64,000 bases of DNA from Rhytidiadelphus loreus (Eukaryota; Streptophyta; Bryopsida; Hypnales; Hylocomiaceae): positions 85,926,981-85,990,980 of the forward strand of contig OX344762.1 of assembly GCA_947034895.1 (NCBI GenBank), in the 5' to 3' direction. The notes under the pieces were generated by a model, which worked only from the letters and a program-made list of their open reading frames with translations, searched no databases and was not told where the DNA came from. This document shows positions 35,655 through 63,675 of the stretch, in pieces. A program made the position numbers and the translations under genes. Position 1 is the first letter of the stretch. Each line of letters begins with the position of its first letter.

Positions 35655-36575
35655 TTAACTTCTAAAGGACCAAGGCCTTATCAATTTTGCCAAAAGACAC
35701 TCAAAACTACCATTTCTATTGCAAAGAGTAAAACAATTTGAATTTTTTTTGTTGCACATCTAACCATAGGATCTTACACCTAAATAGTATGAGAATGTGT
35801 GGAATAAATTTCAAAAATTTTGACCACACAAATTGCAAGATATTTGCATTTAAAATGAAGAAAAAGGTCTTTTGTACATTATAGGACTAGATTATTTGAC
35901 TTTGAACCTTCTTAACTTAAATTTTTTGCACTACAAAGTTTTTAGGTTTAATCTTTATGGTGGAAAAGTGAGTTGATATTTTAGGAAAAAATAAAATTTG
36001 AAAATCATTTTCATTCTTAAAAAAATTGTTAAGTAGAAGTAGGTATAAGATAGCAGGAAAATATCAATTGTTAATATCTCTAAGATGGAATTAAAATGCA
36101 CTAATCCAACAATGAGATTGTTCTAGCAAGCAAACTAAACCATGTAGAACTTCTTTTTTGAGAAATTGTAAAAATTGCATTCAGAAATGAATCCTACAAG
36201 TTATTTTTTCAAGATGATACTTAGATTGCCCAAAAAACAAGATTGTCCATAACTTCTACATCACTTATCCAAATGAAATGAATAAAAGCTTTCCATGTAG
36301 ATAAAAATATAATCTAAGAGAGAGAAAACTAAAAATTAAAAATTAAAAACTTCTGAAATTTTCTTTTACTGCTAGGTCTCCATTGTTTTGAACTTATTTA
36401 AGCATAGCTTTGTTCTTAGGGCCCAATTGAAAAAAAATTATATTTTCACCGAAGATAATTAGTTTTTCTATCTTCAAAAAAAAGTTTCAAAAAATCATGA
36501 CAAAAATTGAGACTGTAGATACTTGCCCAAAATCTAATTTGTCCCTTGAAGGGACAATGGTCCTTTAGGGGTTAA
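35655..36575. mobile_element. TTAA-flanked TIR element, 921 bp, best-preserved copy
   Basis: The left end is TTAACTTCTAAAGGACCA and the right end TGGTCCTTTAGGGGTTAA, matching at 16 of 18 positions as inverted repeats. It has no coding capacity. Related copies lie at 15786-18377 (interrupted), 42264-43200 (opposite orientation) and about 59490-59876 (right part). An internal near-palindrome GTCCCTTGAAGGGAC lies just inside the right end. Confidence 0.7.
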
Positions 36576-38751: not shown

Positions 38752-39022
38752 TAGGGCGACCTCGGGTGAGGGCGACTTCGGGTAGGGGGCGACTTCGGGT
38801 AGGGGCGACTGCGGGTAGGGGGCGACTACATGTCTTAGGCAAACACGGGTACTAGGTCGCGGTCGCTTCTACCCGCACCCGTGGGCGCACTTGCCCTCAT
38901 CCAAGACCCGCACTCGTCCTTCGTCACTTGCACGTGCCCCCCCAAGACCTACGGTCGCCCCTCCAGGACCCGCGGTCGCCTACGTGACCCGCACGTGCCC
39001 ATTTTGCATCCACACCCGGGTT
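38752..39022. repeat. CpG-rich monomer array upstream of the first W-C-H-I family gene
   Basis: The first half reads GGGCGACTTCGGGTAGGG and variants. From about 38870 the same monomer appears in reverse complement (ACCCGCGGTCGCC and variants). It is much richer in GC and CpG than the flanks and ends immediately before a TATA box at 39027. Confidence 0.85.
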
Positions 39023-39033: not shown

Positions 39034-39225
39034 GAAGTCGCCGAATCTTCATTCTCCCATGTTCATCACTAAGGCTTCTTGGCTTGTATCCCTTTCTGGC
39101 TACATGCATAAGCATTTGGTGTTGAAAATTTACTATTGACTACTTTCATCCAAGGTTCTTTTTCTAGTGGTTTGATTTCAACAATCCCTCTACATTTTTT
39201 AGGACCTTCATTTCAACAACCCACC

Positions 39226-41704: not shown

Positions 41705-42263
41705 AAACAATCCAAATGGATTTGACGTCTGAGAATTTAATGATGGACTTCATTTCTCCTTTGGTTACTTGGTTTACATCCAAGGATATATAATGTCAAA
41801 CCCCTAGTATATAGAAGCGTATTATATATGGTAGAAGCGTGTAGCTCTCAGTCTTTTTGTTTTGTTCCACATAGGCCAACTTCGAGCCTTCTATGATTGT
41901 ATGCTACACATTTGTATTGCAATATTACCGAGAATATAACAGTGCCTTCATTTTTGAAACATATTCTACATTATTTTCTACTCCAAAGACTTCACTATCT
42001 TCAAACAAAATCAAATATGTGGTACAACTGATTGTATGAAGCTTATTATCAAAGAGATATTAAAGTTGAAGTTCACTTTGACATTGTCATTTGCATTGAC
42101 ATTTAAGCTTCTAAAATTAATTCAACTATAAACTTTAAATTTTATTACTTAGAATTCAAAATTGTATATCATTGTAAGAAATCTCATTATCTCAATTCAT
42201 TTCATGGAAGATTGTAATTGTTATCATTTTAGTTCCATAAATAGAAAAAGTGAACATGATGAA

Positions 42264-43200
42264 CCCCTTAAGTCCCATTGTCCCCTCTAGAGACAATTTG
42301 GAATTTGGGCAAGTTTCTATGGGTTGAAATTGTACCCTAATTTTTTGAAATTTTTGGTGAAAAGAGAAAATCTGATAAGCTTTGAGGGAATATAATTTTT
42401 ATTTCAATTGGTGTCCGGAAGCAAAAGTTACGCCACAAAATACCTAGAACTAAACTCAGCAGGCAGTACAAAAAACATTGCAAAAATTCAAAATAGATTT
42501 AATTTTGTTCATGTTTATGCTAACATTATGTTTTTGTCTACATAAAAAGATTTGATTCATTCCATTTTCATTAGTGATGTGCAAGTTAAGAACCCTGTTC
42601 TTTTTAAGGCAATGTAAACAAATATTTCAAAAAATAACTTATAGAATTCATTTGAAAATGCAATTTTCAAATTTTCTCTAATTAGTTTATTTTAAAGGAG
42701 AAGTTTGCTTCCTACAACAATCTCACTGTTGGGACTAACGGATTATTGTGTTCCAATCCCATGTAAGAGCTATTATCAATTTAGTTTTTCTTTTAACCTT
42801 GGATCTACTTCTACTTGACAATTTTTTGAAGTATGAAAAGGAAGTTATTATTTTTTGAATTTTTTTTCCTACACTCCCAACTCAATTCTTCAACACAATA
42901 AATTTTAAATTCAAATTCCATAGTGCACATTTTTGGAAGAAATAGCAATCAAAGTCGTCTGAAAGTGTAGTCCAGTGTTGCAAAAAAATTGCTTCTTCAA
43001 CTTTGAATGCTCATATCTCTAAATCTGTACAGTCAAACATCGTACAATTTTAACCACAAAATCTTAAACAAGTGAAGTTCAAGATCCTCAGCTTCAGTTC
43101 CACAAAAGTTTAGTTTTTTCTTTGGACAAACACAATAGAATTATAGAAATGACAGTTTTGATTTTTTCTTCACCTAAAAATGGCCTTCGGACTTTATGGG
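42264..43200. mobile_element. TTAA-type TIR element, reverse-oriented relative of the 921-bp copy
   Basis: The left end is TGAA then CCCCTTAAGTCCCATTGTCC; the right end is CTTTATGGG then TTTA. The interior reads as the reverse complement of 35655-36575, for example the region around 42726, which matches the complement of CACTAATCCAACAATGAGAT. Both flanking TTAA sites carry one substitution, consistent with age. Confidence 0.5.
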
Positions 43201-43665: not shown

Positions 43666-45159
43666 CTACTTTCTAAAAACCTCTTTTTGGTTTAGGAAGT
43701 CACTCATATTAGGAGGAGGACCCACTTTCTCGTATTCTTCACCTCTCTTTCCCATTGTATCCTTCATCCACTTCATCCATTGCGTATAATACTCGCTTTC
43801 GGCTCTCAGATCCACAAACTCGTCTTCCAACACTTGTACTCTAGTCTCATGGAACTTCACCAAATTCCGAAGCATTTCTAACTCCTCTGGAAGATTACCG
43901 TATGTCGAGGCCGTTGCCAAAATGTCCACCTCCTTGACATGTTTTTGGGCCGCTTTGTAATATTTCTTTTCCTCTTCGGTAATTTGCACACGCAGTGCTC
44001 GCTGCTCATTCTCTGCTTTCCTACGTCTGCGTTGCAGGGTTTCTAATTTTGATTCCCACAGTAAACAATGGTCAGCTTGCGACAATTTCCCGGTGCTCTG
44101 CTTAGTTAAATACTGGTCTCCATTCTTCTTAAAAGCAACAAAATCGTCATCTCTCTCTTTGAGTATTTGGTTGAGAGACCTCAATTGTTGCTTCAAATAA
44201 GCTTCAATGGGAGAAGACACTTCGCGTTCCTTCAAATTCTTCAGTTCCTCACTCTTTGTACTCAACGATAAACGTGCACTTTCAATTTTGGCAATCAAGG
44301 TCTCCTCATTGTCTGATGAATCACTATCACCTTCTAGCATCGCACGCTCCTCTGTGGAAAAGTCCTCCACTTCCATGGGGTCAACTTTTTCCAAGACTTC
44401 TTCATGGCTGGTTGAGGTAATGGACTCTTTTCCACGATCTTTCTTCTTCTGAAGGCCCACATCCAAAGACTTCTTGGACTCGGTGACAAAAACATCTTCA
44501 TCATCGCTAGAGAAGGAATATCCGTTGTACTCATGGGTGTGCTCGTCCAAGGAAGAAGTGGAAGACCAAACTACTTCTTCATTAGCAACAAATGATGCTC
44601 CACGCTTAATCGGTGTCATCATCTTGCTTATATCAAGAGGATACTTTGCCCACAAGTTGGAGGCTTCCTCCCACTCTTTTTGGTCCGGACGGATTGCAAT
44701 AGGCATTTCTGGGAGTGTTGTCCAATCCACTACCTTCTTCAAAACAACTTCGGCATACACCATTCGTACAAGAAAGAAACTGAAATTATCGTTTCTGTAC
44801 ACCTTGGTCTCCAAATATAGAAGGGTCCATACTTCGCAGCATCTACGCATGAACCTTGTGTCCGTAGCATACGCAAGGTTAACCTTTTGGTTTTGAACGT
44901 GCAAAGGGTGACGACACAACGGAAATAACTTACTGATGTGGCACCAATCCACATACTTCGCAACAGTCCGGTAACTCCAAGGCTCTGGTTCATCCCTCCA
45001 ACCCTTAAAAGCCTTAATCTTCGGATGAAGTAATATGGCCACGCGCTTTTTGTGCTTCTTGTCTGACCGTTTTCGACCCTTGTCCTTCATCGCCCTTTTC
45101 TCTTGCGGAGTCAATGGAGTAGGTATGGTAGGAGGAGATGGCGAGGTCGTACGCTCCAT
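43666..45159 (-). CDS. W-C-H-I family protein, intact 497 aa, mobile-element associated
   Basis: An uninterrupted frame starts at ATG 45159 and stops with TAG at 43666-43668. Residues 1-39 are Pro/Thr-rich then Lys/Arg-rich (KRSDKKHKKR), a likely nuclear signal. Residues 40-149 form the family block: VAILLHPKIKAFKGW, EPEPWSYRT, YVDWCHISKLFP (WCHI at 72-75), FMRRCCEVWTLLY, MVYAEVVLKKVVDWTTL. The middle (about 200-285) is acidic and Ser-rich, and the rest is largely coiled coil. I recognise no known domain and no catalytic motif. Coiled coil plus a conserved basic-flanked block would suit a DNA- or protein-binding accessory protein of a transposon, but that is inference. It is the only one of the three family members here without a break. 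A CpG-rich array lies 350-580 bp upstream. Confidence 0.7.
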   Translation of the reverse strand: MERTTSPSPPTIPTPLTPQEKRAMKDKGRKRSDKKHKKRVAILLHPKIKAFKGWRDEPEPWSYRTVAKYVDWCHISKLFPLCRHPLHVQNQKVNLAYATDTRFMRRCCEVWTLLYLETKVYRNDNFSFFLVRMVYAEVVLKKVVDWTTLPEMPIAIRPDQKEWEEASNLWAKYPLDISKMMTPIKRGASFVANEEVVWSSTSSLDEHTHEYNGYSFSSDDEDVFVTESKKSLDVGLQKKKDRGKESITSTSHEEVLEKVDPMEVEDFSTEERAMLEGDSDSSDNEETLIAKIESARLSLSTKSEELKNLKEREVSSPIEAYLKQQLRSLNQILKERDDDFVAFKKNGDQYLTKQSTGKLSQADHCLLWESKLETLQRRRRKAENEQRALRVQITEEEKKYYKAAQKHVKEVDILATASTYGNLPEELEMLRNLVKFHETRVQVLEDEFVDLRAESEYYTQWMKWMKDTMGKRGEEYEKVGPPPNMSDFLNQKEVFRK

Positions 45160-45440: not shown

Positions 45441-45504
45441 TTTGCACAAAAGCAGGGGGACTGACGACCGCAAGTCCACCCCACCCCATTTGTACTGGGA
45501 CTAG

Positions 45505-45742
45505 CGGTCGCGGGAGGGTGAGTGCGGGTCCTCCAAGTAGGGCGAGTGCGGGTCCCCCGACCGCACAAGGATGACTGCGGGTACCCAGGCGACCACGGGT
45601 CTACAAGGCGACCGCGGGTGCAGATCCCTAGGCAACTTCGGGTGCGGATCCCTGGGCGACCTCGGGTGCAAGTCCCTGGGCAACTTCGGGTGTGGATCCC
45701 TGGGCGACCTCGCGTGCGGGTCCCTGGGCGACTTTGGGTGAT
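45505..45742. repeat. CpG-rich 24-bp monomer array upstream of the 497-aa gene
   Basis: About six to eight copies of a unit such as GATCCCTGGGCGACCTCGGG followed by TGCG. It sits upstream of the minus-strand gene that starts at 45159. The core GCGAC-NNCGGGT is the same as in the 15-bp arrays. Confidence 0.85.
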
Positions 45743-45779
45743 TTTTCAGACAAAGACAAATAAAAGAGGAATCTAACAC

Positions 45780-46590
45780 AAGTGGTTTCATATTTTTGGA
45801 AGTATTTTATAATTACTTATAAATTTCCAAAGGACTTGTGTCATAGGTCCCTATTTATGCCCCTAGGTCTTCCGCAAAATGTTCACTTGCAACTTCTAAA
45901 TATAAATGGGAAAGTAAAGATAATGGATTGGCTCTTACAATTCATAATTTTTTTTCTCGAATCATTTAATGATTATGGAGGTCAATTTATGAACTACAGA
46001 TTGTCCATTTCAAAGCCACTTATACGGTCCATTTTTAATGCCCGCTCCATTTCAAAGCCTTCTACCTTATCTTTACTTTCACATCCACACAAATGGAGAG
46101 AGGAACCCTCTTTAAAATCCAATGGACGTCGGATTTGGAGAAACTCCCCAACTAAAAAAATATTTACGATAGTGTTTCCTTGAGTGTCAAATGCTTCAAT
46201 GCACACCCTTGCCTGAGCAAAAAAATTTATGTATCAATGAATAGGTGGTAGTGAAATCGTGGGTCACCAGAATTAAAAATATTCCCAACCTGTAATGAGT
46301 TTAATAGCTATTCAAGTGATATTAAGTTTTGGAAGAGAACATTTTAGAGTGCCAATATAATTTGTAGTTCTTCATTTCACCTTCAATCCCAATTTTCTTT
46401 TATAAGCAATACAATCAATAAAGAAAATGAAAATTTTCTTGGTTATCATCTCACAACTCTTATCCAATTTTGCACTCAAAGGAAACGTGCATACTAATAC
46501 ACAAGCTAATTAAACATTCATACGGTTAGATTTTTGTTTTATAAAACTTGCTTCAATGGCAATTACTATAAATCCATGCTCAATTTTCAT
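45780..46590 (-). repeat. R2 repeat, copy 1 (minus orientation)
   Basis: It aligns as reverse complement with 55790-56570. Shared phrases include AGGTCCCTATTTATGCCCCT, CACTTGCAACTTCTAAA and the complement of GTGGGCATTAAAAATGGACT. It links a hairpin unit (46600-47690) to the CpG-rich array and gene at lower coordinates, the same order as in the opposite-strand copy near 55-58 kb. Confidence 0.75.
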
Positions 46591-46905
46591 AGGAAAAATA
46601 CAAGAGGGAAATTGGGAAAGGCTTAAGGCACTTAGGACTTTATTAGTAATGCACTCTAATTGTTAAGTTAAACTTATCTTTTGACCCTACATAAATTAAG
46701 CAATCACCCGTCTTGTAAAATCAAATTTCATTCACAAGTATTTATTCGTCATTGTCCATAATGACGAACAAATCTAATTAAATAATGATTTACCACAATT
46801 GAATTCTAAAATACTCTATATCATTACAAATTAGTTACTTTAAAGTTTCAAAAAATCCCGTGAAGACCTCGGTCTAGGCCACGTGACGTGCTTCGAGGAT
46901 TGGGC

Positions 46906-46972
46906 CAAGGATAACTTCGAGTTTCAAACCGAAATGTTTTTCATCTCGGTTCGGAACTCGAAGTGGTCCTTG
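46906..46972 (-). ncRNA. Candidate structured hairpin, copy A
   Basis: Two 27-nt arms (46906-46932 and 46946-46972) pair at 23 of 27 positions around a 13-nt loop that reads GATGAAAAACATT in the unit's orientation. The base of the stem is CAAGG/CCTTG. The arm interior differs from the other four copies. Confidence 0.6.
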
Positions 46973-47237
46973 ACCAAATCCGTAAGATCCAACCATAACC
47001 TCCTACATCATGCACACGGAATTTGGAATCGAACCGTAGACCTCCCAGACTCCACTTGAGTTCGAAGAAGTTGACCCTTGTGTGAGAATCCCTTCCACTA
47101 CTTCACCTTCCCGTTGGTCACATCGGGAATCACCTTTGATGCACCACTCCTTTTCCATCCCGTCTTTATTCTTTTTTTTCTTTGATTCTATTGGGCTTCA
47201 AAATACCATCAGCTGCCCAACACGAAATAGTCTCCTT

Positions 47238-47452
47238 GTTTTGGACCCGAAGTCGCCCCACCCGAAGTCGCCCTACCCGAGGTCGCCCAAGTCCCAAAAA
47301 AGAGGGAAGCAAAAATGCGTGAGTTCTTCCCTCCTCTCTGGACTCGCGGTCGCCCCACCCGAAGTCGCCTTACCCGCAGTCGCCCCAGCACCGCAGAAAG
47401 AAGTCCCCAGTTTCCCCCTTTTCTGGACCCGCGGTCGCCCCTACATCGGTAT
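47238..47452. repeat. CpG-rich monomer array within unit A
   Basis: Repeats of CACCCGAAGTCGCC and CCCGCGGTCGCC (reverse complement of the plus-orientation monomer), with the linker around TTTCTGCGGTGCTGGGG also seen in units C, D and E. Confidence 0.85.
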
Positions 47453-47693
47453 TTGAAAGAGTGACTTACAGAAGACTGCTGTCATGGTAGGTGAGATCAT
47501 AGAATAATCTCTAGATAGCTTACAATTATATCACATGATCATTTTATTAAATGGTCCCTAACAAGGCTTCAATATCCTTAAGCCCTACAATGATGAACCA
47601 AAAACCCTACAAAGCCCTCGCAAACTAGAACCATAAACGCAAACCTAAACCCTCAAATGCCCAATGCATTTTAGGATGGTTTATGAATTTGCT

Positions 47694-48349
47694 TGAACCC
47701 CAAAATGACCCTGGAATTTGCTAAGCTTCTAGAATTTGCTCTAAATTGAACAAAAATCCAACATTTTGATACGTTCTATCAATTCTTTTTGAATTGTAAC
47801 CGTGTAAAATCAAACTAGACGTATTAGAGATCACATTAGAAAAGAAAACACAACAATACCTCTAATTTATTGAAAGATTATAATGTTTTATCATGAGGGT
47901 GTTAAATCTGTGAAAGTGATTTGAAGTATTTCAATCCTCTTTTCAAATGTGAAATCTAAAAAGTTCGTCACCCAAAAAATATGAGCTTAAAGGGCCTAAC
48001 GTGCATAAACCCAATCAATTTATAACTTCTCAAAATCTACTTTATCATTTTTTTTAATTTCATTTGTAATGTGATATTTTCTCAAAGATTTAGTGTGTTT
48101 GAGGCTCATTCCTAAGAGCCCTCAACACTACAAAAAGTCAAGATTGCAAGTGTACACCCATGCACAAAATCTTAAATAGAAAAATCATAATCAATCATTT
48201 TCAAGATCAGATTTTTGAAGCTAAAACTAAACTTCAAAAAGAATTTTCCAAAAATATAAATTACTACATATAGTAATTTGGTAAGGTTTTGTTTAACTTA
48301 GGAAATTGGTTGAGGACCCATCCTGTCCTCGGGGTCACTTAGGGGTTAA
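47694..48349. mobile_element. TTAA-type element with checkable empty site, 648 bp plus TSD
   Basis: The left junction is TGAA then CCCCAAAATGACCC; the right junction is GGGTCACTTAGGGG then TTAA. As inverted repeats the first 14 bases match at 12 positions. The insertion splits repeat unit A. In units D and E the uninterrupted site reads, in this orientation, GAATTTGCTTTAACTTCAAC. The element therefore sits exactly at that TTAA, duplicated on both sides with one later change on the left. No coding region is visible. Confidence 0.75.
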
Positions 48350-48359
48350 CTTGAACAAG

Positions 48360-49080
48360 AAGCCAACATCTTGAATTATAGAATCAATTTCTGTATACTT
48401 CTTCATTTTTCCTCCAATCCCAAGAAACTTTTTTTCTGCAAACTTTAAAATTGTTGTGGAGAGGGGTAATACACTCAAAGTGAAGAATGTACATTTCTCT
48501 TCTTATAATCTTAAAACTCTTCCGCAATTTTGCACTCAAAATAAATGTGCATACTAACAAGCAAGTTGTTTAAACATTCATACGTTTAGATTAAAAAATA
48601 AATAGGAAACTTGCTTCAATGGGAATAACTACAAGTCCATGCTCTTTTCAGAACAGAAAAACTAAGGTAGGAGGCTGTGAAACAGTGCGGGCATTAAGAA
48701 TGGCTCCTATAAATGGTTGTGGAATGGTGCATCTAAAGTTCTGAAATTGACCAGTACATTCATTGAATGAACCAAGGAAGAAAACATTATTAATTGGAAG
48801 AGACAATCATTCTCTGTGTTTTCTCCATTTTTATTTAGAATTGCAAGTGAACCATTCATGAAAGATCTAGGGTCACAAATAGGGACCTATGACCCAACTC
48901 GTTTGAAAATTCATAAGTAATTCAAAAATCTTTGGAAAAATATGAAACCACTTGGGTTAGATTCCTCATCAATTTCTCTTTGTCTGAAAAATGAGCTAAA
49001 ATATTCCCATACAAAGAAATACACGAAAAAGGCAGACCAGCCCTTAGGTGCACCATTTCTGAGCCTCCTACCTTACACTT
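48360..49080. repeat. Rearranged fragments of the hairpin unit flank and of R2
   Basis: 48360-48685 is the reverse complement of the D-unit leader (about 53120-53440). 48690-49040 is an R2 fragment in plus orientation, like 56200-56500. The junctions show past recombination or nested insertion within the cluster. Confidence 0.6.
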
Positions 49081-49690
49081 GGAAAGGCATAGGCTCTTAG
49101 GGGTTCATTAGTAATGCACTCTAATTGTTATGTTAAACTTATCTTTTGACCCTACATAGATTAAGCAAACACCCCGTCTTGTAAAATCAAATTTCATTCA
49201 CAAGTATTTATTCGTCATTGTCCATAATGACGAACAATTCTAATTAAATAAAGATTTAGCACAATTGAATTCTAAAATACTCTATATCATTACGAATTAG
49301 ATACTTTAAAGTTTCAAAAAATCCCGTGAAGACCTCGGTATAGGCCACACGACGTGCTTCGAGGATTGAGCCAAGGGGCACTTCGAATTTCGCACTGAAA
49401 TGTTTTTCATCTCAGTGCGCAATTCAAAGTGCCCCTTGACCGAACCCGTAAGACCCAACTATAACCTCCTACATCATGCACACGGAGTTGGGAATCGAAC
49501 CGCAAACCTCCCAGACTCCACTCGAGTTCGAAGAAGTTGACCCTTGTGTGAGAATCCCTTCCACTACTTCACCTTCCCGTTGGTCACATCGGGAATCACC
49601 TTTGATGCATCACTCCTTGTCCATCCCATTTTTATTCTTTTTTCTCTTTGATTCTATTGGGCTTCAAAATACCATCAGCTGCCCAACACA
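49081..49690 (-). mobile_element. Hairpin repeat unit B (SINE-like)
   Basis: Same order as unit A in minus orientation: conserved phrase with GGGCTTCAAAATACCATCAG at about 49660, tRNA-like segment with B box (complement at 49491-49501), hairpin, then 3' tail. Its 5' part has been replaced: the array at 49699-50119 runs into a kinase-fragment ORF on the plus strand. Confidence 0.7.
49372..49438 (-). ncRNA. Candidate structured hairpin, copy B
   Basis: The arms 49372-49398 and 49412-49438 pair at 25 of 27 positions around the same 13-nt loop as copy A. The B box lies 52 nt from the stem, the same distance as in A, C and E. Confidence 0.65.
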
Positions 49691-49698
49691 AAATAGTC

Positions 49699-50119
49699 TC
49701 CCAGTCGCCCCACGGCTCCATAGCCCCACCCGAAGTCGCCCAATCCTCCAAAGAGGATTACAAATGCGTGAATTTTCCACGACTTCTGGACCCGCGATCG
49801 CCCCACCCGATGTCGCCCACCTGAAGTCGCCCACCCAAAGTCGCCCAATCCTCCAAAGAAGATTACAAATGCGTGAATTTTCCACGACTTCTGGACCCGC
49901 GGTTGCCCCACCCGAAGTCGCCTACCTGAAGTCGCCTACCCAATGTCACCCCAGTCGAGGTCGCCCCAGCACCACAAAAGCTGGAAGTCCCAAGTTCCAG
50001 GGCGACCTCGGGTGTAGGGGGCGACCTCAGGTTCGTTGTTTCAGGACCGCTTTGGTACCCGCAGTCGCCCTTACCCGCACGCGCCCCTATGGCGACCGCG
50101 GGTACTTAAGCGGTCGCCC
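49699..50119. repeat. CpG-rich monomer array upstream of the kinase-fragment ORF
   Basis: Repeats of CACCCGAAGTCGCC and CCACCTGAAGTCGCC, including a duplicated block of about 120 bp that contains the phrase GGATTACAAATGCGTGAA. Near 50000 the monomer orientation flips to GGGCGACCTCGGGTG. It ends about 100 bp before the kinase-like frame. Confidence 0.85.
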
Positions 50120-50206
50120 CACCTGCATTCGCCAGTCTTGGTCCTGTGCTACGGCTTTCATCCACCTTGTAGTAGCTGAATGCGAGCTTGTGGGCCAAGG
50201 CGGTGA

Positions 50207-50662
50207 TTGGGGGGTGGACTTGTTGCCTTTTTTTTCCACGACTCTATTTATTCATCAATTGTGGGTAACTTTGTGAAGGAAGAGCTATGTCTAATCCAAG
50301 AGAGGGATGACATGTTGAAAGGCAGATGGTGGGTGGCTCCAGAGTTGTTCTATGTGTTTGGGCCAAAGGGTTCAGAAACGAGCCTTGACAAGATGCAAGC
50401 TAGGCACAAGTATACGATTAAGTCTGATTCGTTTTCTATTGGTAAATTGATTTGGAACATGAAAATTGGTTATATGGGTGAATATGATAGAGAACTATTC
50501 AAAAACCCTGAGTCGGGAAAGTTCTTTACAATGAAGTTACGTGCGCTTATGGATCTTGACTTACAGACAAGATTCACATGCTATGAGGTGGTAGCTTCAC
50601 TCATGCTTCCACCCTGGAATATGAAGCCTCCAGAATTAGTTTTTCGGGACTCCGTGTTGTAG
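50207..50662 (+). pseudogene. Protein-kinase C-lobe fragment captured next to the array
   Basis: The open frame has the C-terminal kinase landmarks only. APE of subdomain VIII is at residues 44-46 (counted from 50207). KSDSFSIGKLIWNM, matching subdomain IX with its invariant Asp, is at 72-85. A subdomain XI-type LQTRFTCYEVVASL has Arg122. The glycine loop, VAVK lysine, HRD and DFG are all absent, and the upstream DNA is CpG-rich array, so there is no room for an N-lobe. The first in-frame ATG is at 50312. It cannot be an active kinase. It looks like a host gene fragment carried by, or dropped into, the repeat cluster; a regulatory or silencing role is possible but not shown. Confidence 0.55.
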
Positions 50663-51400
50663 TGTGATAGAAGAATACCATAGTATCATTTTGGAGTAGT
50701 ACTTCTAGTACATGTAATCAAATTTTAATATGAAGTGCCATTTTTTCCAAATTGGCAATATTGTGGATCTATTCTTCATGGTATGTTGTATTGAATCTCT
50801 CATATCAATGTTTGTATTTTGCTGCAATGAATGAATTAAATAGGCTCAATGTTCCAGTAAGATATCCTACAGTAAGATATATAGCCTTGGAATAATGGAG
50901 CCCATTTTCCTTCTAAAAAGCATTGACAATCGGCACTTGTATTGGTTCATCCGGCAAAAAAGGATGACTTTCTTGTAATCTTAATAGGTTTTTGGCAATG
51001 AAAACGACATTTCTCAATTGGTTTGAATGGGCCAGAAAAAATGGGAATATAAGGGTTAAATGCGTTACACCATTTTTAGGTGAAATTAATTTCACCTTTA
51101 TATGTAGAAATTACGTTTTCTCTCAACAAAACCATTTTGGTCTACAAATTAAAAATTAAATTTTGAATTTTCCTTTTAATGTTTCACAAAACATTTTTAC
51201 AAAGAGTACCTTGAAGGCTTCTTCCAGGTTCATTACTTTTGAATACATGGTCAAAAAATTCTTGCAAGATCTATATGTTTGAGCCATGATCGAAAATTAA
51301 TAAAAGTTTCTTTAGATGTGAATTTAACCCCTGAAGTTCGAAGGCCATTATAGGGTCAGAACCACTAAAAACCGTCACTTTGGCTACTTTCAGAAAAAAT
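50663..51400. other. Intergenic within the repeat cluster
   Basis: No gene. A TTAA-type left end (TTAACCCCTGAAGTTCGAAG) occurs at 51324, but its partner end is missing, so it is probably truncated by the adjacent unit tail at about 51410-51590. Confidence 0.45.
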
Positions 51401-51866
51401 CTTGAAGTGCATTACAATAAGAGTGCATTACTTATTAAGCCCTATGTGCCTAAGCCTTTCCCTCTTGTATTTTTCCTATGAAAAAAAAGCATGGACTTAC
51501 AGTAATTCCTATTGAAGCAAGTTTCCTATTTATTTTTTAATCTAACCATATGAATGTTTAAACAACTTGCTTGTTAGTAGGCACATATAATGTTGACTTC
51601 TTGTACAATTTAAAGCAAATTCATAAAACATCCTAAAATGCATTGGGCATTTGAGGGTTACGGTTTGGATTCTAGGGTTCTACTTTGCGAGGGCTTTGTC
51701 GGGTTTTCGGTTCATGATTGTAGGGCTTCAAAATATTGAAGCCTTGTTAGGGACCATTTAATAAAATGATCATGTGATATAATTGTAAGCTATCTAGAAA
51801 ATATTCTATGATCTCACCTACCATGACAGCAATCTTCTGTAAGTGACTCTTTCAAATACTGATGTA

Positions 51867-52473
51867 AAGGCGACCGCAGGTGGGGCGACCGCGGGTCCAG
51901 AAAAGGGGGAAATTGGGGACTTCCTTCAGCGGTGCTGGGGCGACCTCGGGTGGGGCGACTTCAGGTGGGGCGACTTCAGGTGGGGCGACCGCGGGTAGGG
52001 CGACTACGGGTCCAGAGAAGGGGGAAATTGGGGACTTCGTTCAGCGGTGCTAGGGCGACCTCGGGTGGGGCGACTTCGGGTGGGACGACCGCGGGTAGGG
52101 CGACTACGGGTCCAGAGAAGGGGGAAATTGGGGACTTCTTTTTGTGGTGCTGGAGCGACCTCCAGTGGGGCGACTTCGTGTGGGGCGACCGCGGGTAGGG
52201 CGACCGCGGGTAGGGCGACCGCGGGTAGGGCGACTACGGGTCCAGAGAAGGGGGAAATTGGGGACTTCTTTCTGCGGTGCTGGGGCGACCTCGGGTGGGG
52301 CGACTACGGGTCCAGAGAAGGGGGAAATTGGGGACTTCTTTCTGCGGTGCTGAGGCGACCTCGGGTGGGGCGACCGCGGATCCAAAGAGGAGGGAAAAAC
52401 TCACGCATTTGAAATTCCCTCTTTTCTGGGACTTGGGCGACTTCGGGTGGGGCGACTTCGGGTCCAAAACTGG
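51867..52473. repeat. CpG-rich minisatellite with higher-order structure, unit C
   Basis: The basic monomer is 15 bp, GCGACYNCGGGTGGG. Runs of two to five monomers are separated by a linker of about 55 bp starting CCAGAGAAGGGGGAAATTGG and ending at a GCGGTGCTGG-like phrase. The monomer-plus-linker block recurs about five times (linkers near 51898, 52011, 52111, 52231 and 52311). The number of monomers differs between blocks, a sign of slippage or unequal exchange. Confidence 0.9.
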
Positions 52474-52735
52474 GAGATTAATTTGTGTTGGGCGGCTGAT
52501 GGTATTTTGAAGCCCCGTAGAATCAAAGAAAAAAAATAATAAAGATGGGATGGACAAGGAGTGGTGCATCAAAGGTGATTCCCGGTGTGACCAACGAGAA
52601 GGTGAAGTAGTGGAAGGGATTTCCACACAAGGGTCGACTTCTTCAAACTCAAGTGGAGTCTAGAAGGTCTGCGGTTCGATTCCCAACTCCGTGTGCATGA
52701 TAAAGGAGGATCTGGTTGAATCTTATGGGTTCGGT

Positions 52736-52804
52736 CAAGGTCCACTTTGAGTTCAGATCTGAGATGAAAAACACATTTCAGTTCTGTATTCAAAGTGGTC
52801 CTTG
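52736..52804 (+). ncRNA. Candidate structured hairpin, copy C
   Basis: The arms 52736-52762 and 52778-52804 pair at 23 of 27 positions. The loop is GATGAAAAACACATT, two bases longer than in the other copies. The stem begins 52 nt after the B box. Confidence 0.6.
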
Positions 52805-53680
52805 GCCCAATCCTCGAAGCACGTCGCGTGGCCTAGACCGAGGTCTTCACGGGATTTTTTGAAACTTTAAAGTAACTAATTTGTAATGATATAGAGTATT
52901 TTAGAATGCAATTGTGCTAAATTTTTATTTAATTAGAATTGTTCATTTTTATGGACAATGACGAATAAATACTTGTAAATGAAATTTGATTTTACAAGAG
53001 GGGTGTTTGCATAATCTATTTAGTGTCAAAAGATAAATTTAACTTAACTATTAGAGTGCATTACTAATTAGGCCCTACGTGCCTAAGCCTTTCCCTCTTG
53101 TATTTGTCCTATTAAAAAAAAGCATGGACTTATAATAATTCCCATTGAAGCAAGTTTCCTATTTATTTTTGAATTTAACCATATAAATGTTTAAACAACT
53201 TGCTTGTTAGTATACACATTAATTTTGAGTGCAAAATTGCGTAAGTGTTGTAAGATTATAACAAGAGAATAAGAGAAATGTACATTTTTTACTTCAAGTG
53301 TATTATCCCCCTCCACAACAATTTTAAAATTTGCACAAATAAAGTTTTTTGGGATTGGAGGAAAAATGAAGAAGTACAAAGAAATTCATTCTATAATTCA
53401 AAATGTTGATTTCTTGTTGAAGTTAAAGCAAATTCATAAAACATCCTAAAATGGGTTGGGCATTTAAGGGTTTAGGTTTGGGTATAGGTTCTAGTTTGCG
53501 AGGGCTTTGTAGGGTTTTTGGTTCATCATTGTAGGGCTTGAGGATATTGAAGCCTTGTTAGGGATCATTTAATAAAATGATTATGTGATATAATTGTAAG
53601 CTATCTAGAGATTATTCTATGATCTCACCTACCATGACAGCAGTCTTCTGTAAGTCACTCTTTCAAATACCGATGTAGGG

Positions 53681-53893
53681 GCGACCGCGGGTGAGGCGAC
53701 CGCGGGTCCAGAGAAGGGGGAAACTGGGGACTTCTTTCTGCGGTGCTAGGGCGACCTCGGGTGGGGCGACTGCGGATAGGGCGACTTTGGGTGGGGCGAC
53801 CGCGGGTCCAGAGAGGAGGGAAGAACTCACGCATTTTTGCTTCCCTCTTTTTTGGGACTTTGGCGACCTCGGGTAGGGCGACTTCAGGTCCAA
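53681..53893. repeat. CpG-rich monomer array within unit D
   Basis: GGGCGACCGCGGGTGAGGCG and variants with two linkers of the type seen in unit C. It is shorter than the unit C array. Confidence 0.85.
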
Positions 53894-54165
53894 AACGGGG
53901 AGACTAATTTTTGTTGGGCGGCTGATGGTATTTTGAAGCCCCGTAGAATCAAAGAAAAAAATGAATAAAGATGGGATGAACAAGGAGTGGTGCATCAAAG
54001 GTGATTCCTGGTGGGACCAACGAGAAGGTGAAGTAGTGGAAGGGATTCTCACACAAGGGTTGACTTCTTCAAACTCAAGTGGAGTCTGGGAGGTTTGCGG
54101 TTCGATTCCCAACTCCGTGTGCATGATAAAGGAGACCTGTTATAGTTGGATCTTACGGGTTCGGT

Positions 54166-54232
54166 CAAGGACACTTTCGAATAGAGAATGGAGATGACAA
54201 ACATTTCCGTTCTATACTCGAAAGTGTCCTTG
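54166..54232 (+). ncRNA. Candidate structured hairpin, copy D
   Basis: The arms 54166-54192 and 54206-54232 pair at 24 of 27 positions around the loop GATGACAAACATT. The arm sequence differs from that of adjacent unit E at about 13 of 27 positions. Confidence 0.65.
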
Positions 54233-54856
54233 GCTCAATCCTCGAAGCACATCACGTGGCCTAGACCGAGGTCTTCACGGGAATTTTTGAAACTTTAAAG
54301 TAACTAATTTGTAATGATATAGAGTATTTTAGAATTCAATTGTGCTGAATCATTATTTAATTAGAATTGTTCGTCATTATGGACAATGGCGAATAAATAC
54401 TTGCGAATGAAATTTGATTTTACAAGAGGGGTGTTTGCATAATCCATTTAGAATCGAAAGATAAGTTTAACTTAAAGTATATTACCCCTCTCCACAACAT
54501 TTTTAAAATTTGCACAAATAAAGTTTTTTGGGATTGGAGGAAAAATGAAGAAGTACAAAGAAATTCATTCTATAATTCAAAATGTTGATTTCTTGTTGAA
54601 GTTAAAGCAAATTCATAAAACATCCTAAAATGGGTTGGGCATTTAAGGGTTTAGGTTTGGGTATAGGTTCTAGTTTGCGAGGGCTTTGTAGGGTTTGGAG
54701 TTCATGATTGTAGGGCTTGAGGATATTGAAGCCTTATTAGGGACCATTTAATAAAATGATTATGTGATATAACTGTAAGCTATCTAGAAAATATTCTATG
54801 ATCTCACCTACCATGACAGCAATGTTCTCTAAGTGACTCTTTCAAATACTGATGTA

Positions 54857-55127
54857 GGGGCGACCGCGGGTAGGGCGACTACGGGTCCAGAGAAGGGGGA
54901 AATTGGGGACTTCTTTCTGCGGTGCTGGAGCGACCTCGGGTGGGGCGACCGCGGGTACAAAGAAGGGGGAAATTGGGGACTTCTTTCTGTGGTGCTGGGG
55001 CGACCTCGAGTGGGGCGACTATGGGTGGGGCGACCGCGGGTCCAGAGAGGAGGTAAAAACTCACGCATTTGAAATTCCCTCTTTTCTGGGACTTGGGCGA
55101 CTTCGGGTGGGGCGACTTCGGGTCCAA
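54857..55127. repeat. CpG-rich monomer array within unit E
   Basis: Monomers GCGACCTCGGGTGGG and GCGACCGCGGGTAGG with linkers beginning AGAAGGGGGAAATTGGGG, as in units C and D. Confidence 0.85.
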
Positions 55128-55394
55128 AACTGGGAGATTAATTTGTGTTGGGCGGCTGATGGTATTTTGAAGCCCCGTACAATCAAAGAAAAAATAAATA
55201 AAGATGGGATGGACAAGACGTGGTGCATCAAAGGTGATTCCCGGTGTGACCAACGAGAAGGTGAAGTAGTGGAAGGGATTCTCACACAAGGGTCGACTTC
55301 TTCGAATTCAAGTGGAGTCTGGGAGGTCTACGGTTCGATTCCCAACCCGGTGTACATGATGTACGAGGTTCTGGTTTGGGCTTATGGGTTCGGT

Positions 55395-55462
55395 CAAGGA
55401 CCTCTTTGACCTCCACAGTGAGATAGAAAACATCTCACTACGGAGGTCGAGGAGGTCTTTTG
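55395..55462 (+). ncRNA. Candidate structured hairpin, copy E
   Basis: The left arm 55395-55421 and right arm 55435-55462 (one extra base) pair at about 22 of 27 positions, around loop GATAGAAAACATC. Three more complementary bases can close the loop ends. The arm interior, GACCTCCACAGTGA, shares little with the other four copies. Confidence 0.6.
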
Positions 55463-55789
55463 GTCAAACCTTCGAAGCACGACACCTAGCCTATACTCAA
55501 GTCTTCAAGGGATTTTTTGAAACTTTAAAGTAACTAATTCGTAATGATATACAGTATTTTAGAATTCACTTGTGCTAAATCATTATTTAATTAGAATTGT
55601 TTGTCATTATGGACAATGACGAAGATGTACTTGCGAATGAAATTTGATTTTAGAAGAGGGGTGTTTGCATAATCTATTTAGAGTCAAAAGATAAGTTTAG
55701 CTTAACAATTAGAGTGCATTACTAATGAACCCCTAAGTGCCTATGCCTTTCCAACTGTATTTTTCCTTTATGAAAAGAGCATGGACTTA

Positions 55790-56570: not shown

Positions 56571-56833
56571 TTGTGAGGGCCAGGGTGAATTGACTCCCTC
56601 ATTGCCCATCCAGGGCTTGCCCTAGAATTTTTTATTTGCATTGCTTAATTTTTTTTGGAATTTTGAAATCATATTTGCAATCAGAGGCCCCAAATTACTT
56701 CTAGGAGATGCAAGAATTACCAAAAAATTGGCAAAATATAGGGGGCTTTTTTTCCAAACCTAAGTTGACGGGGGCAATGAGGGGGTCAATTCTCCCTGTG
56801 CATTTCCTGACTCTGCTACCTTTCCCTGGATCC

Positions 56834-56943
56834 ACGGTCGCCCTGAAGCCATGCGCGCCCTTCTTGGACCCGCGGTCGCCCCACTTAACGCACTCGCCCC
56901 CCTAAACCTTGATCCCGCACGCGCCCAGGGCGACTTCAGGTAC
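56834..56943. repeat. Short CpG-rich array upstream of the third W-C-H-I family gene
   Basis: Degenerate monomers such as CACGGTCGCCC, CCGCGGTCGCCCCA and GGGCGACTTCAGGT. It ends about 195 bp before the ATG at 57139. Confidence 0.7.
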
Positions 56944-57138
56944 AAATGCAGTCGCCAGGGACACGAGCTGCCACTTTATTTTCTAGTGCTGTGCATCGGC
57001 TTCCATATGCTTTCAAGTGTTTGGATGCGTGTTCATGCACTGGAATCTTGTGTCTAGGACACTTTTTGTGCTGTCGTCGATTATGGAAGACCATACTTTC
57101 TGAGCATTTGGAGGATACCAATACATCCTATATTCACC

Positions 57139-58716
57139 ATGGCCCCCCCCTTTAAGAAGGCAAAGAAGAAAGGAGAGTGCCATAGTCGAAATGTAGCCAT
57201 CCTTTTGGACCCAACAGCAAGGACATTTCCAAATTGGCAAAACGTGCAATCGGATTGGACGTTCAACACTTGCAAGGCCTATGTAGGGTGGTGCCATATC
57301 GATAAGCTATTCCCTTACTTCCAGCACGATGTCCATATCAGCCAAAACAATGCTAATCTTCACTACTGCAGAGATGATGCATTTGTGCAACGGTGCATCG
57401 AAGTTTACCGGACATTATATCAAAAACCAACAGTGAAGGGGAGCCAAGTTTCATTGGGTATATGCCAAATGGTCTATGCAAAGCTACAATTGCGACGAAC
57501 TGTGGATTGGAGGACCATTAAGAAAACCCCCAATAGCATAGTTCCCACTACCAAAGACATTCCAAGGGCGGATCCATCAAATAATCCGAGGGATGGATTA
57601 GGGCCCAAAAAACATTTCAAAGAAGAAGTGTCGGATGAAGACTACGATTGGGGCCAGTCGTCCACCTCCACTGACTTGGATGAAGAAGACATTGCAGACC
57701 CCATGCCCCCAAATGAAGATCCAATACTTGAAGAAAATATGGCAGCGGTGGTACCTTTTGTTGGAGACTCAGAAGGGGCAGTAGTATTGCATGTCGCGCC
57801 TCTTAGATCGTTGGAGCCAATGCACTTCCGTCATCCTAAGGAAGACGAAGTTCTTCAACATGTATATGCACGCATGCGAGAAATGGAGGAAGACAAGGAG
57901 GATGGTGAGATCGGGTTGCAACGAGATGCTGAATAAGCATTGGTGATTTTTCATTCATGTGAAGAACTACCTCTTCAAGAAGCAGGAAGGGAAGTATTAT
58001 ATCTTGAAGACACGAGGAGGCAAGGAAAAGAAGCTTATAAAGCCCAGTTGAAGGCTATTCTTGGTAGACTGGTACAAATAGGAATGGAATGTGAAAGGCA
58101 GCGTGAACGCACTGGTGGTGACATTGAAGCCAACGATGAGCACACCCTCGAAGCACTAATCATAAGCGGGAAAGTTCGTTTGTCAGTTCAACAAAAGGAA
58201 ATGGACGAGTTGGAGCAATTTTATTTGAAATTCAATAAAGGCAAAGATGGAGGCTCCACCTCAAATTCCACCCCGTTCTTGGATAAACGAATGGCCAAAA
58301 TAATGGAAGAGTGTTTGGCAGAAGAAAACCAATTGAATACCGAAAGGAAAGCTGTGGAAGAGGCACAGTCAAGGTTGAATGACCTAAAAGAAACCACGGT
58401 TGTCGGCCCCATTGACCTTCCAATGGCTTTGGCTGCATTATTAGTAGATGAAGAGCATTGTGTGCTGACATCAGAGGTAGCTTCCTTGAAGCAGAAGTTA
58501 GTTTATTTGAAGAAGCTTGAACACCAGTTTCAGAAGCACATAGATTTCCGGACTGCACACATTGGTTTTGCGAGAATGTTCAAGAATTTTTGGATCAAAA
58601 ACAAGATGTGGAACCATGACCTACCCCTTTTGAAGAGTGCTCAGAGAATTGCGGCCCATGAGCTTGAAGTCATGAAGAAGAAAAGGGAAGAGGAGGCCAA
58701 TATGGATGTTGCATGA
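57139..58716 (+). pseudogene. W-C-H-I family member, one in-frame stop (525 codons overall)
   Basis: ATG at 57139 opens a frame with a single TAA at 57934 (codon 266). The same frame then continues to a TGA at 58714, so without that codon the protein would be 525 aa, close to the intact 497-aa relative. Residues 1-18 are Lys-rich. The family block is NVAILLDPTARTFPNW, YVGWCHIDKLFP (WCHI at 51-54), FVQRCIEVYRTLY, MVYAKLQLRRTVDWRTI. An acidic middle and a coiled-coil C-terminal half follow, as in the relative at 43666-45159. AATAAA at 58855-58860 would end the transcript. It may be a recent pseudogene, two separate products, or a readthrough gene; the first is simplest. Confidence 0.65.
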
Positions 58717-59489: not shown

Positions 59490-59880
59490 TGAAAAACTTT
59501 GAATCATTTCATTTTGATTGCATGCCAAACAATATTGTTCATAACTTTCACATTACTAATCCAAATGGAATGAATCAAAGCTACACATGTAGACAAAAAT
59601 ATGACCTTTAAGAAGAAAAAAATTAAAAAATTAATTTCAAATTCTTGTAGATTTCTTTTTCTGCCCTGAAACGTTCCTTACAAATTATGTTAAAGATGCC
59701 ATAACTTTTGTTCCCGGAATCCCAAGTACCAATTGCAACAAAATTCATATTCCCATAAAGGTAATAAGCTCTTGTATATTATGAGATAGTTTCCAAAAAA
59801 TTCATTAAAAATCGAGATCATAGGAACCTGCCCAAAATCCATTTTGTCCCTTGAGGGGGCAATGGTCCTTTAGGGGTTAA
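59490..59880. mobile_element. TTAA-type element, right part
   Basis: The right end TGGTCCTTTAGGGGTTAA (59863-59880) is identical to that of the element at 35655-36575, and the interior aligns with its right part (phrases TCCAAATGGAATGAATCAAA and CCAAAATCCATTTTGTCCC). The left end is not recognisable. The last TTAA is only about 20 bp from the next CpG-rich array. Confidence 0.55.
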
Positions 59881-59898
59881 GTTAATCTTTATGCACAT

Positions 59899-60095
59899 GA
59901 AGTCGCCCTACCCGAAGTCGCCCATCTAGGACCCGAAGTCGCCCTTCCTGGACCCGAAGTCGTCCCACCTGGACCCGAAGTCACCCTCCCTGGACCCGCG
60001 TTTGCACCATGTGACCCGAAGTCAACTACTGCAAAGGCGCGCGCCTCCATATGCTTGGAGGTGGACCAGCGGTCGGGTAGGGCGACCTCGGGTGT
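59899..60095. repeat. CpG-rich array upstream of the hAT transposase gene
   Basis: About six copies of a 24-bp-type monomer such as GGACCCGAAGTCGCCCTTCC. At 60072-60093 one copy is in the opposite orientation (GGGTAGGGCGACCTCGGGTG). It precedes a TATA box at 60161. Confidence 0.85.
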
Positions 60096-60387: not shown

Positions 60388-63300
60388 ATGGCAAACCGAG
60401 GTGCGGGGAGGAGGACGAACATAAATGATACTTGAAGAGCCACAAAGGAGTGGGATCCATGGTTGGTTATTGAAACAAACCCCGCTCGTTCCACAAATAC
60501 GAGGACTTGTATTTTTTGTGGTTGGAACAAAGTTTTCGTGCAGAAGCGGGCATTTGGTCACTTTGGTTACCCCCGTACATCAACAGTGGAACGTTGTAAA
60601 CGTATTCCATCCGTAGTCCTCGAATTATTCAGGAACTGTGAAGGGATTGTACCAAAAGAAATGAGTTTGGAGGAGATGCATGGAGCAGATCCGGAGGTTG
60701 ATGTTGTTGCTGAGTCCGTTGCAGGGTATACTGTGGATGCATCAGTGGAAGGGTCTGTGGACCCAAGCGACAGGACATAAGCACCTAATGCACCGCCTAG
60801 TAATCCAGATTCAACGAATTCTACTCCTGTGACAGTGAGAAGGATGCGCTCAACCTCGATTTCTCGTCAACAAAGCATGGATGAATCATTCCGGGTCAAT
60901 GAAAGACAAAACTTGGACAGACTATGGGCTTCTTTCTTTTATGAGGCTAACATTGCATTCAATGTGGTGCGGCACCCAGCCTTTGTGAATGCTGTGAAAG
61001 CAACTTCAACATGTGGATTTCAATATTCCCCGCCATCGAACAATGCGGTGCGCACTAAACTACTTGATGTGAAGAAGGAGGCTGTTACGAAAATGGTTAG
61101 TAGTCGAACAAAGAGTTCTATTACCCAATATGGAGCCACTATCTGTTCAGATGGATGGTCAGATACGAATCACCGTCCCTTGTTGAATATGATGCTCGTT
61201 TGCCCTGCGGGTGATGTCTTCTCGGGATCGGTTGACACCACAGGAGAGAGGAAAGACATGGCGTATACGGTGAATACAATGGCTACCTACATAGAGCAGG
61301 TGGGACCAGGAAATATTGTCCAATTGTGTACATACAATGCTTCCGTAATGACAGGGTCAATGCGCGAGTTGCAAGCAAGGTATCCCCACATGTATACGCA
61401 AGGATATGCCGCACATATATTGGACTTACTTTTGGAAAACTGGGGAAAGGAAAAAAGGATCAAAGATCTAGTAGATAAGGCCAGGGCAATTGTGAAGTTT
61501 ATAAAGAAGTACCACTTGACTTTGGGTCTCTTCCGTAAGTACTCGCCGAAGAAGTCATTGAGACTTCCCGCGGCTACACGCTTCGCAGTGCATTTTCTCA
61601 TGATAGACCGTTTGGTAGAGTGCAAACAAGCGCTTCAATTCGTGGTGGGGGACGAGACGTATATGCCATTTGAGAATAGTTTGGTCAGCAGAACAAACGG
61701 ACTCATTACAAGAGAGCGGGCCCGTAAAGCGCGAGAGGACATAGTTTCGGAAGTGTTTTGGGTGGAATGTGGTAATTTCCAGCACATGGTTCTTCCAATG
61801 ATTCTTACTCTGCGCCAGTTCGATGGCAAAATACCGGCGATGCCGAAAGCTTGGATAATAATGAGTAGCCTTCGTCAGCACGTGTGCACTTTAAAGGAGG
61901 CTCCGTTCTTTCTTGATGAGCAGACCGCGACGAAGTTCCTAAAACAATTTGATGCTCGTTGGAAGTTGATGCGCACAGACCTCCATTATGCAGGGGCATT
62001 GTTGAACCCATATTTGACAGATGTAGAAGAGCTTCATAACAACTGAGAGGCAAAGCGGGCATTGAATCGAGTCATCAGAAAATTGAGCGGACCATTGAAT
62101 GTGGATGAAGATGAAGCAATTGTTGAGTTGACGGAATTTGAAGAGAAGTCGGGTCCCTTTGATCCATTACAAGAGGCTCCAGATGTTACTCGATGTAACT
62201 TGTTGCCTCATCAATGGTGGAATCGTGTGGGTGGGAACGCTCTTCCAAAAATAGCAAGGAGAGTTTTGTCTCTGACATGCTCAGCATCATCTTGTGAAAG
62301 AAACTGGAGCATGTATTCATTTGTACACGATAAAGTGCGTAATCGCCTAGCCACAAAGAAGGCTGAGATGTTGGTGTATATCTACACCAACAGCAAATTG
62401 GAACGTGAAAAACAAGGACACAATCCAGCACTATTCTACGAAAAGTACCTTGTAGATGGAGATACAGATGAAGAGAATGAGAAACCATATTCTTCGGGGG
62501 ACGAAGATGAAGTTAGGTTTAGAGATTTGAGAGAAGAACAGAGACGTGTGGTAGTAGAAGAACGCCTCCGTGGAAATAGGTGGGCTGGTATGGTGCCCCG
62601 TGTAGGTAGTCCTCCACGAGGACGATACCACAACACTTTCGTGGGTGATGATGATGGACTGAGCTCTCCAGAGGCATTGCACCACCGCAGAGACAAAGCC
62701 CCTCATGTGTCGGCTTGGGATGCATTTCCGGTAATCAATGCAGACCCAACGAGGGAAAGAACTCCTGATGACAACAATGACGGTGTAGATATCCCAGTGG
62801 CAGATGAAGTGGAGCTTGTAAAGTCTCCAATTGCCACATGTCTGCCGCCTAGTATGCCAATGAACCTCCGAAGTGGTGCACGAGTTAATGTACAGGGTGA
62901 AAGGCAAGAAGAGGTGTCGCATATTGAAGAGGTACCTACAGTTCGTCCAAGTTTAGCACCGTCCAACAACACTGCAACAGAAACTAGGGTGTACGATTTA
63001 GATGCGCCATTGCAAGTGGTATTCAACAAGACCCGTACCCATGGGTCCAATCGCCCTGCAAGTGTAGACATTGCCACAACATCGAGGATAGTACCAACTC
63101 CTCTAACAAGGTCGCCGACACATAATGATCTACAACAAATCGTTGATGAAGGAGTGCATGGCTCAGCTCCACAACCTACTCCGGCCTCGTTGATGTCAGG
63201 CCCTGGAGAATCATCCAGGCGATCGCGTGAACACTCCAAATCAGGAAATAAACGAACCCGCAAGACGCAAGACAGATTGACAAGGAACCCCAAGCGTCAA

Positions 63301-63675
63301 AACCATGCGATCCATCCATTTGTCATTGGAGAACGAAATTCCACTCGTAATCCTTGGCCATCAAGCGTAGCAGCGAGAGCAGAGCGTCAACATGTTGGGC
63401 AGCAGGTGCTTGAGCGACCGACTGGCCTTATTATCAATGGAATCACTGATGTATCGAGGCCGACAAAGCGATTAGTGCTAGCCGAAGTTGTTGTTGGTTT
63501 AGAAACGCAAGTGCAAAATTTGAACTATGAGGTGGAACGTGAGGTGATCCTTCAACCTACAAGCAGAGAGGATGATGAAAACGAGGTCTCAGGAGCTAGT
63601 GACAGTAGTGGGCCACATGAAGACACCGACCCCAATGCAGATGAAGCAGAAAGCGATTCTACCTTCACAACGTAA
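60388..63675 (+). pseudogene. hAT-superfamily transposase (BED, DUF659, hAT dimerisation), three in-frame stops
   Basis: One frame of 1096 codons from ATG 60388 to TAA 63673 is interrupted by TGA at 60433 (codon 16), TAA at 60778 (codon 131) and TGA at 62044 (codon 553), without any frameshift. A BED-type zinc finger has CIFC at codons 41-44 and a candidate His58. The DUF659/RNase-H-like core has the first catalytic Asp in ICSDGW (codon 255). The usual second Asp in the TDNA motif is Tyr (TYNA, codon 316), and the CxxH motif has lost its Cys. The C-terminal hAT dimerisation region has CERNWS with Glu637 and a following RNRLATKKAEMLVYIY. A hydrophilic tail of about 400 residues follows, longer than usual for plant hAT proteins. 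It should be inactive. I could not locate terminal inverted repeats; the right end may lie outside the window. Confidence 0.85.

Follow-up and report, generated by a model that had tools for sequence, protein, structure and literature searches.

A local cluster of candidate Pol III-type hairpin RNA genes with variable, paired arms in Rhytidiadelphus loreus

The interface-induced (trans-species) MIRNA loci of Cuscuta are among the closest described systems to the locus reported here, a cluster of five hairpin-bearing repeat units (A to E) with inverted repeats that spans about 45.7-56.5 kb of a 64,000-nucleotide stretch (the window) of Rhytidiadelphus loreus (contig OX344762.1, positions 85,926,981 to 85,990,980, forward strand; assembly GCA_947034895.1). 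As described in the commentary PMC10226582 and in PMC6917502, Cuscuta carries many related hairpin loci that give variant small RNAs within one genome ("superfamilies"), share a promoter element with features of RNA polymerase III (Pol III), and vary with a three-base period. The Cuscuta element, USE, lies upstream and is U small nuclear RNA-like, whereas the units here contain internal A and B boxes, a different promoter class; moreover, function and action on hosts were shown there, while the R. loreus units are known from sequence alone. In Neurospora, the microRNA-like RNA (milRNA) loci transcribed by Pol III likewise encode hairpin small RNAs ahead of a T run, with putative A/B boxes marked at four of them (PMC3547838), but they belong to a fungus, no A or B box is predicted for milR-1, and the relevant parts of that report do not describe a diversified family on one scaffold. 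In overall design the units also recall the minimal artificial-miRNA (microRNA) precursor shc-MIR390 (89 nt, against 85-87 nt here), which has a basal stem, an interchangeable 21-nt duplex and a short distal loop (parts of PMC10602918), although that precursor is engineered and the units are natural. Finally, tRNA-derived short interspersed nuclear elements share the internal type-2 Pol III boxes but differ from our units, which lie in a local cluster and have a core of some 570 nt in common (estimated by eye).

We propose that the cluster is a family of hairpin RNA genes of Pol III type that arose by local duplication and whose small-RNA payload is diversifying, a reading to which we assign a probability of about 0.5. 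By analogy, each unit is laid out much like a plant pre-miRNA, but with a payload that varies inside a conserved scaffold. Known miRNA families conserve the guide and let the loop drift; judged from the sequence, this pattern is inverted here, a guide-sized block changing while its surroundings are largely kept. Among open PMC papers screened by title and the opening of the abstract, none described a family of A/B-box hairpins whose payload varies, although this does not establish its absence from print.

Internal boxes, hairpins and T runs of the five units

All five hairpins that a first-pass annotation had listed are present at the coordinates given there. On the strand carrying the B box their folding energies range from -43.5 to -55.3 kcal/mol, and in each case this strand folds more stably than its complement. 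Units A and B lie on the minus strand and units C, D and E on the plus strand, and each is composed of the following parts.

47090-47100, minus strand: A box TAGTGGAAGGG of unit A (type-2 consensus; identical in 5/5 units)
47025-47035, minus strand: B box GGTTCGATTCC of unit A (type-2 consensus; identical in 5/5 units)
46897-46981, minus strand: hairpin A, full stem (core 46906-46972)
46850-46855, minus strand: T6 run of unit A, resembling a Pol III terminator
49556-49566, minus strand: A box of unit B
49491-49501, minus strand: B box of unit B
49363-49447, minus strand: hairpin B, full stem (core 49372-49438)
49316-49321, minus strand: T6 run of unit B
52608-52618, plus strand: A box of unit C
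52673-52683, plus strand: B box of unit C
52727-52813, plus strand: hairpin C, full stem (core 52736-52804), loop longer by 2 nt
52855-52860, plus strand: T6 run of unit C
54034-54044, plus strand: A box of unit D
54099-54109, plus strand: B box of unit D
54157-54241, plus strand: hairpin D, full stem (core 54166-54232)
54284-54288, plus strand: T5 run of unit D
55267-55277, plus strand: A box of unit E
55332-55342, plus strand: B box of unit E
55386-55471, plus strand: hairpin E, full stem (core 55395-55462), its 3' basal part containing a T4 run and one additional nt
55513-55518, plus strand: T6 run of unit E

The A and B boxes of all five units match the strict Pol III type-2 consensus, TRGYnnARBGG and GGTTCRAnYCY (given in a part of PMC7279448), and are always separated by 65 nt, start to start, on the same strand. 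Pairs of consensus boxes 35-100 nt apart occurred in only one of 300 simulated 64-kb Markov-1 sequences, while the window holds five, each belonging to a hairpin unit. The first run of at least five Ts is found 180-185 nt past the start of the B box in 5/5 units, and in units A to D no run of four or more Ts lies between the B box and this run. As the first-pass annotation had it, the B box stands 52 nt from the CAAGG that opens the hairpin core in four copies and 56 nt in D; what it had overlooked were the A box, the T run, the full length of the basal stem and the size of the variable block. Apart from the long gap between the boxes, the layout is what Pol III would require to transcribe a unit of about 265 nt, and it is from this layout that we infer transcription.

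In all five copies the stem comprises 40 positions, namely 14 basal, 20 in a variable block and 6 in the upper stem, closed by a loop of 5-7 nt. The basal stem is therefore nine positions longer than the CAAGG/CCTTG base described earlier, and the loop previously given as 13-15 nt is partly stem, as GAGATG pairs with CATTTC. Recounting from CAAGG reproduces the 22-25 Watson-Crick matches of 27 reported for the arms. Columns 39/116, in the basal stem, are unpaired in 5/5 copies, the innermost stem pair is lost in copy E, and wobbles are common to all five copies at columns 42/113 and to four at columns 70/84. The would-be duplex formed by the 20-position block has one to three mismatches in each of the five copies; the usual limit for a plant miRNA duplex is five. 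A 267-nt segment of unit D folds at -98.8 kcal/mol (z -4.86), with none of 200 shuffles equally low. In plant precursors that are processed from base to loop, the first cut falls about 15-17 nt above the stem base and a second releases the 21-nt duplex (parts of PMC9893293 and PMC10602918).

A scan of the 64 kb for arms of 24 nt that match at 20 or more positions around a loop of 3-39 nt returned 13 hairpin-like places, the five unit hairpins and eight others, six of which have a G+C content of 0.29 or less. Other strong hairpins in the window are at 3237-3320 (24/24 arm matches, 36-nt loop) and 16729-16815 (23/24, 39-nt loop). Neither an intact tRNA nor a known Rfam RNA was found in the window, with ARAGORN or with Rfam at gathering, nor in the D unit searched alone.

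Divergence and pairing of the arms

According to the first-pass annotation, change among the copies concentrates in the arms and is matched from one side of the stem to the other, and both parts of this description are borne out. Averaged over pairs of the five copies, the two arm blocks differ by 0.44 and 0.42, as compared to 0.067 on either side of the upper stem, 0.16 in the loop (five columns), 0.065-0.075 in the flanks farther out, 0.14-0.16 next to the hairpin, 0.096 (9.6%) in the spacer between the boxes, and 0 in the boxes themselves. The arms are thus about 3 to 7 times more divergent than the flanks; equal divergence, which had been associated with chance decay of one old hairpin, is not what we find (42-44% against 6.5-16%). 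When the alignment is read in sliding windows of 20 columns (n=551), the top two begin at the arm blocks, at 0.44 each, and the maximum outside the hairpin is 0.22. Variable columns make up 32/41 in the arms and 90/461 in the flanks (Fisher p 4e-14, with columns treated as independent). Columns with three or more letters number 10/41 in the arms and 0/461 in the flanks, while two-state transition columns account for 11 of the 32 variable arm columns and 53 of the 90 variable flank columns (p 0.023); this excess of three-letter columns, together with the smaller share of transitions, indicates that the arms are not merely receiving the same mutations faster. The arm interiors were correctly said to vary, but the variation is confined to one 20-nt block per arm, and the differences counted earlier between B and D (11) and between D and E (13) hold and all fall inside the block of the 5' arm.

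Change on both sides, relative to the commonest pair, affects 13 stem pairs, all of them inside the 20-position block, and none of the 20 scaffold positions. With partners shuffled, 5.2 +/- 1.7 two-sided pairs are expected and 0 of 500 shuffles reach 13, and the proportion of paired cells in alignment A1 falls from 91.5% of 200 to 82.0 +/- 1.5%; these controls are generous, as duplication relates the copies to one another and copy D supplied the structure used for counting. Sliding the partner by one column leaves 1 and 3 two-sided pairs, by two columns 1 and 5, and by three columns 0 and 3. Left to choose a structure for this alignment, RNAalifold also arrives at the hairpin, with 14 of 50 pairs two-sided, one of which (columns 21/135) lies beyond the 40-position stem. 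Likewise, when 5' blocks are matched to 3' blocks, each with its own partner, the score of 82 is the best of 120 assignments (the next is 76, and derangements average 56). Between copies, block differences that keep pairing are two-sided in 53 cases and one-sided in 18, while one-sided differences in the basal stem keep pairing in 24 cases and break it in 6. The block contains 16 distinct Watson-Crick double changes, of which 6 are transitions in type and 10 transversions.

The scaffold and the block also differ in the kind of mismatch that they carry. On the B-box strand, the scaffold has seven distinct G-U states against two A-C states, whereas the block has five of each; a count of cells over the 34-nt arms gives 19 and 6, with 11 of the 19 G-U cells in three columns (40, 42, 70) that are common to several copies. 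Given this excess in the scaffold and equality in the block, the scaffold seems to be under selection as an RNA read from the predicted transcript strand, and the block appears neutral as to strand; its mismatches may be tolerated, or arm copying at the DNA level may act on it.

Explanations for the paired change

Unchanged boxes, a near-unchanged scaffold and a fast-changing yet paired block of guide size would be accounted for most simply by a family of hairpin small-RNA genes that diversifies its guides. In such a family, Pol III would start slightly upstream of the A box, pass both boxes and the hairpin, and stop at the T5-T6 run, yielding the RNA predicted above. A Dicer-like enzyme would then measure from the basal stem and free a duplex of about 21 nt corresponding to the variable block, so that one fixed scaffold would serve every copy and each copy would supply a different small RNA. 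The rapid paired change would reflect selection for new guides, possibly aided by copying from arm to arm. Selection on an RNA structure, suggested by the first-pass annotation, is upheld for the scaffold, where 6 of 20 positions vary, always on one side only and always to another standard pair on the B-box strand; because the arms differ so much more than the flanks, however, conserved structure alone is an insufficient explanation.

Several observations weigh against a small-RNA gene family. Plant miRNAs are mainly products of Pol II (PMC9893293). In all five units 54 nt lie between the boxes, as compared to the usual 30-40 (a part of PMC7279448), with slightly longer gaps also allowed; unit E has a T4 run within the stem, 126 nt from the start of its B box; and the basal stem, at 14 positions including a fixed mismatch, is slightly under the published figure of about 15-17 bp. 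ARAGORN finds no tRNA genes in the window, and the Rfam tRNA model has no match at gathering in the window, nor to the D unit (the only unit so searched) at E up to 10. No Rfam miRNA family matches at gathering anywhere in the window, and the D unit scores far under threshold (MIR814, 34.8 of 90 bits; MIR5649, 31.9 of 100); for a plant MIRNA gene, such a family match would help but is no requirement. Within the block, the equality of G-U and A-C states lacks the strand bias of RNA, and 28 one-sided and 12 two-sided differences leave one copy unpaired; two-sided differences in the basal stem split evenly, one kept and one broken. Finally, the sample is one cluster of five related copies.

The main rival, which we consider unlikely though it deserves to be taken seriously, is rewriting of a palindrome without function: template switching during replication would copy changes between the arms of a mutable quasi-palindrome within a repeat, and DNA mechanics would keep the pairing. 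Template switching has been proposed as both maker and keeper of RNA hairpins. Arm-to-arm rewriting had already been raised in the first-pass annotation, and it is compatible with the strand-neutral mismatches of the block, with the 10 of 16 double changes that are of transversion type and could not have passed through G-U, and with an apparent matching loss and gain of one base in both arms of D relative to A (seen by eye; the aligner placed no gaps). It does not predict, however, a block flanked on both sides by conserved stem, copying would tend to erase the shared wobbles and the fixed mismatch at 39/116, and the unchanged A and B boxes are left unexplained. Alternatively, the hairpin could act as DNA: a single strand, folded so that a variable stem lies between conserved ends and a conserved loop, would be recognized by a transposase or recombinase, for which integron attC sites provide a comparison. 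The position of the units in a cluster bearing inverted repeats (92% and 86% identical) and the hAT-type transposase at 60829-63675 would suit such a site, but the preference of the scaffold for G-U on one strand is what RNA would show, the boxes and T run are unaccounted for, and the only cluster open reading frame (ORF) scanned, at 50207-50662, has no Pfam match; we regard this explanation as improbable.

Equally hard to credit is sequential capture, in which each copy would have picked up its payload, in the form of an inverted duplication, at another locus, a route suggested for the origin of new miRNA genes in plants. The arms of D and E, which differ at 61% of positions (39% identity), would agree with it, whereas those of A, B and C are alike at about two thirds of positions, which fits stepwise change. 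The best 21-nt matches to the arms elsewhere in the window, as sources or targets, have four mismatches (B, C) or five (A, D, E), and we judged them to be chance. Since A, B and C are so alike and no source in the window comes within three mismatches in 21 nt, the capture of foreign sequence entertained in the first-pass annotation is not favoured in the form of a single step that brings in a wholly foreign arm.

A more ambitious version of the proposal of a guide-diversifying small-RNA family, which we advance only tentatively, is that the cluster could be nature's equivalent of an artificial-miRNA vector: a Pol III gene carried by a repeat, promoted from within and built on an unchanging scaffold for Dicer processing, in which the 20-nt guide would be rewritten on both arms of each duplicate by DNA-level arm copying, supplying new small RNAs in an arms race.

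Setting in the window and significance

The window is plant-like nuclear DNA. Among the ten window ORFs scanned against Pfam, one at 7099-7953 encodes an NPH3 domain, and two encode hAT-type transposase parts, DUF659 at 60829-62046 and Dimer_Tnp_hAT at 62062-63675. Among the 120 of 267 hits listed for the NPH3 protein, the three closest relatives, in Logan and JGI records, are 86-94% identical, and the best hit bearing an organism name is Taxus at 46%. The inverted repeats of the hairpin cluster pair 45741-46105 with 56505-56141 (92%) and 46224-47441 with 56136-54942 (86%). An antisense frame of 42-56 codons crosses the hairpin in B, C and E, with a stop directly before the frame in B, C, D and E; it was not taken as a gene, and a search of 296 candidates as a route to further copies gave none at E up to 10.

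The cluster is bordered by two divergently oriented ORFs, at 43666-45159 (minus strand) and 57139-57936 (plus strand), which together with a third at 39136-39873 (plus strand) form an uncharacterised protein family with a common WCHI.K.FP motif. This family has no Pfam match, and 13 relatives occur in other records at 41-56% identity. Inverted repeats at 36005-36573 and 42262-42842 (72% identity) enclose another family member and an ORF at 40613-41704 with RING matches slightly under the cut-off of Pfam, which suggests that the element between them is a transposon-like unit. Short repeat arrays of the GGCGAC..CGGGT type lie upstream of the ORFs of this family and also within every hairpin unit, and may join the two into one repeat family.

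GGCGAC..CGGGT-type repeat arrays: 38754-38833, 45500-45740, 47240-47440, 49700-50130, 51860-52460, 53670-53900, 54850-55130, 56820-56950 and 59877-59998

Exact-pattern scans for further copies of the hairpin units in other genome-contig and viral-contig collections returned none, and of 27 pattern matches in viral contigs scanned with the protein alignment of the neighbouring repeat gene (A2), none was confirmed. Five copies are too few to decide between selection and arm-to-arm copying.

How new plant small-RNA genes gain guides while keeping a foldable precursor is, in our judgement, an open question. If the variable blocks yield small RNAs, the R. loreus cluster would provide a natural system for following how guides turn over while the promoter and the processing scaffold stay constant, as well as a direct test of selection versus arm-to-arm copying as the source of paired change.

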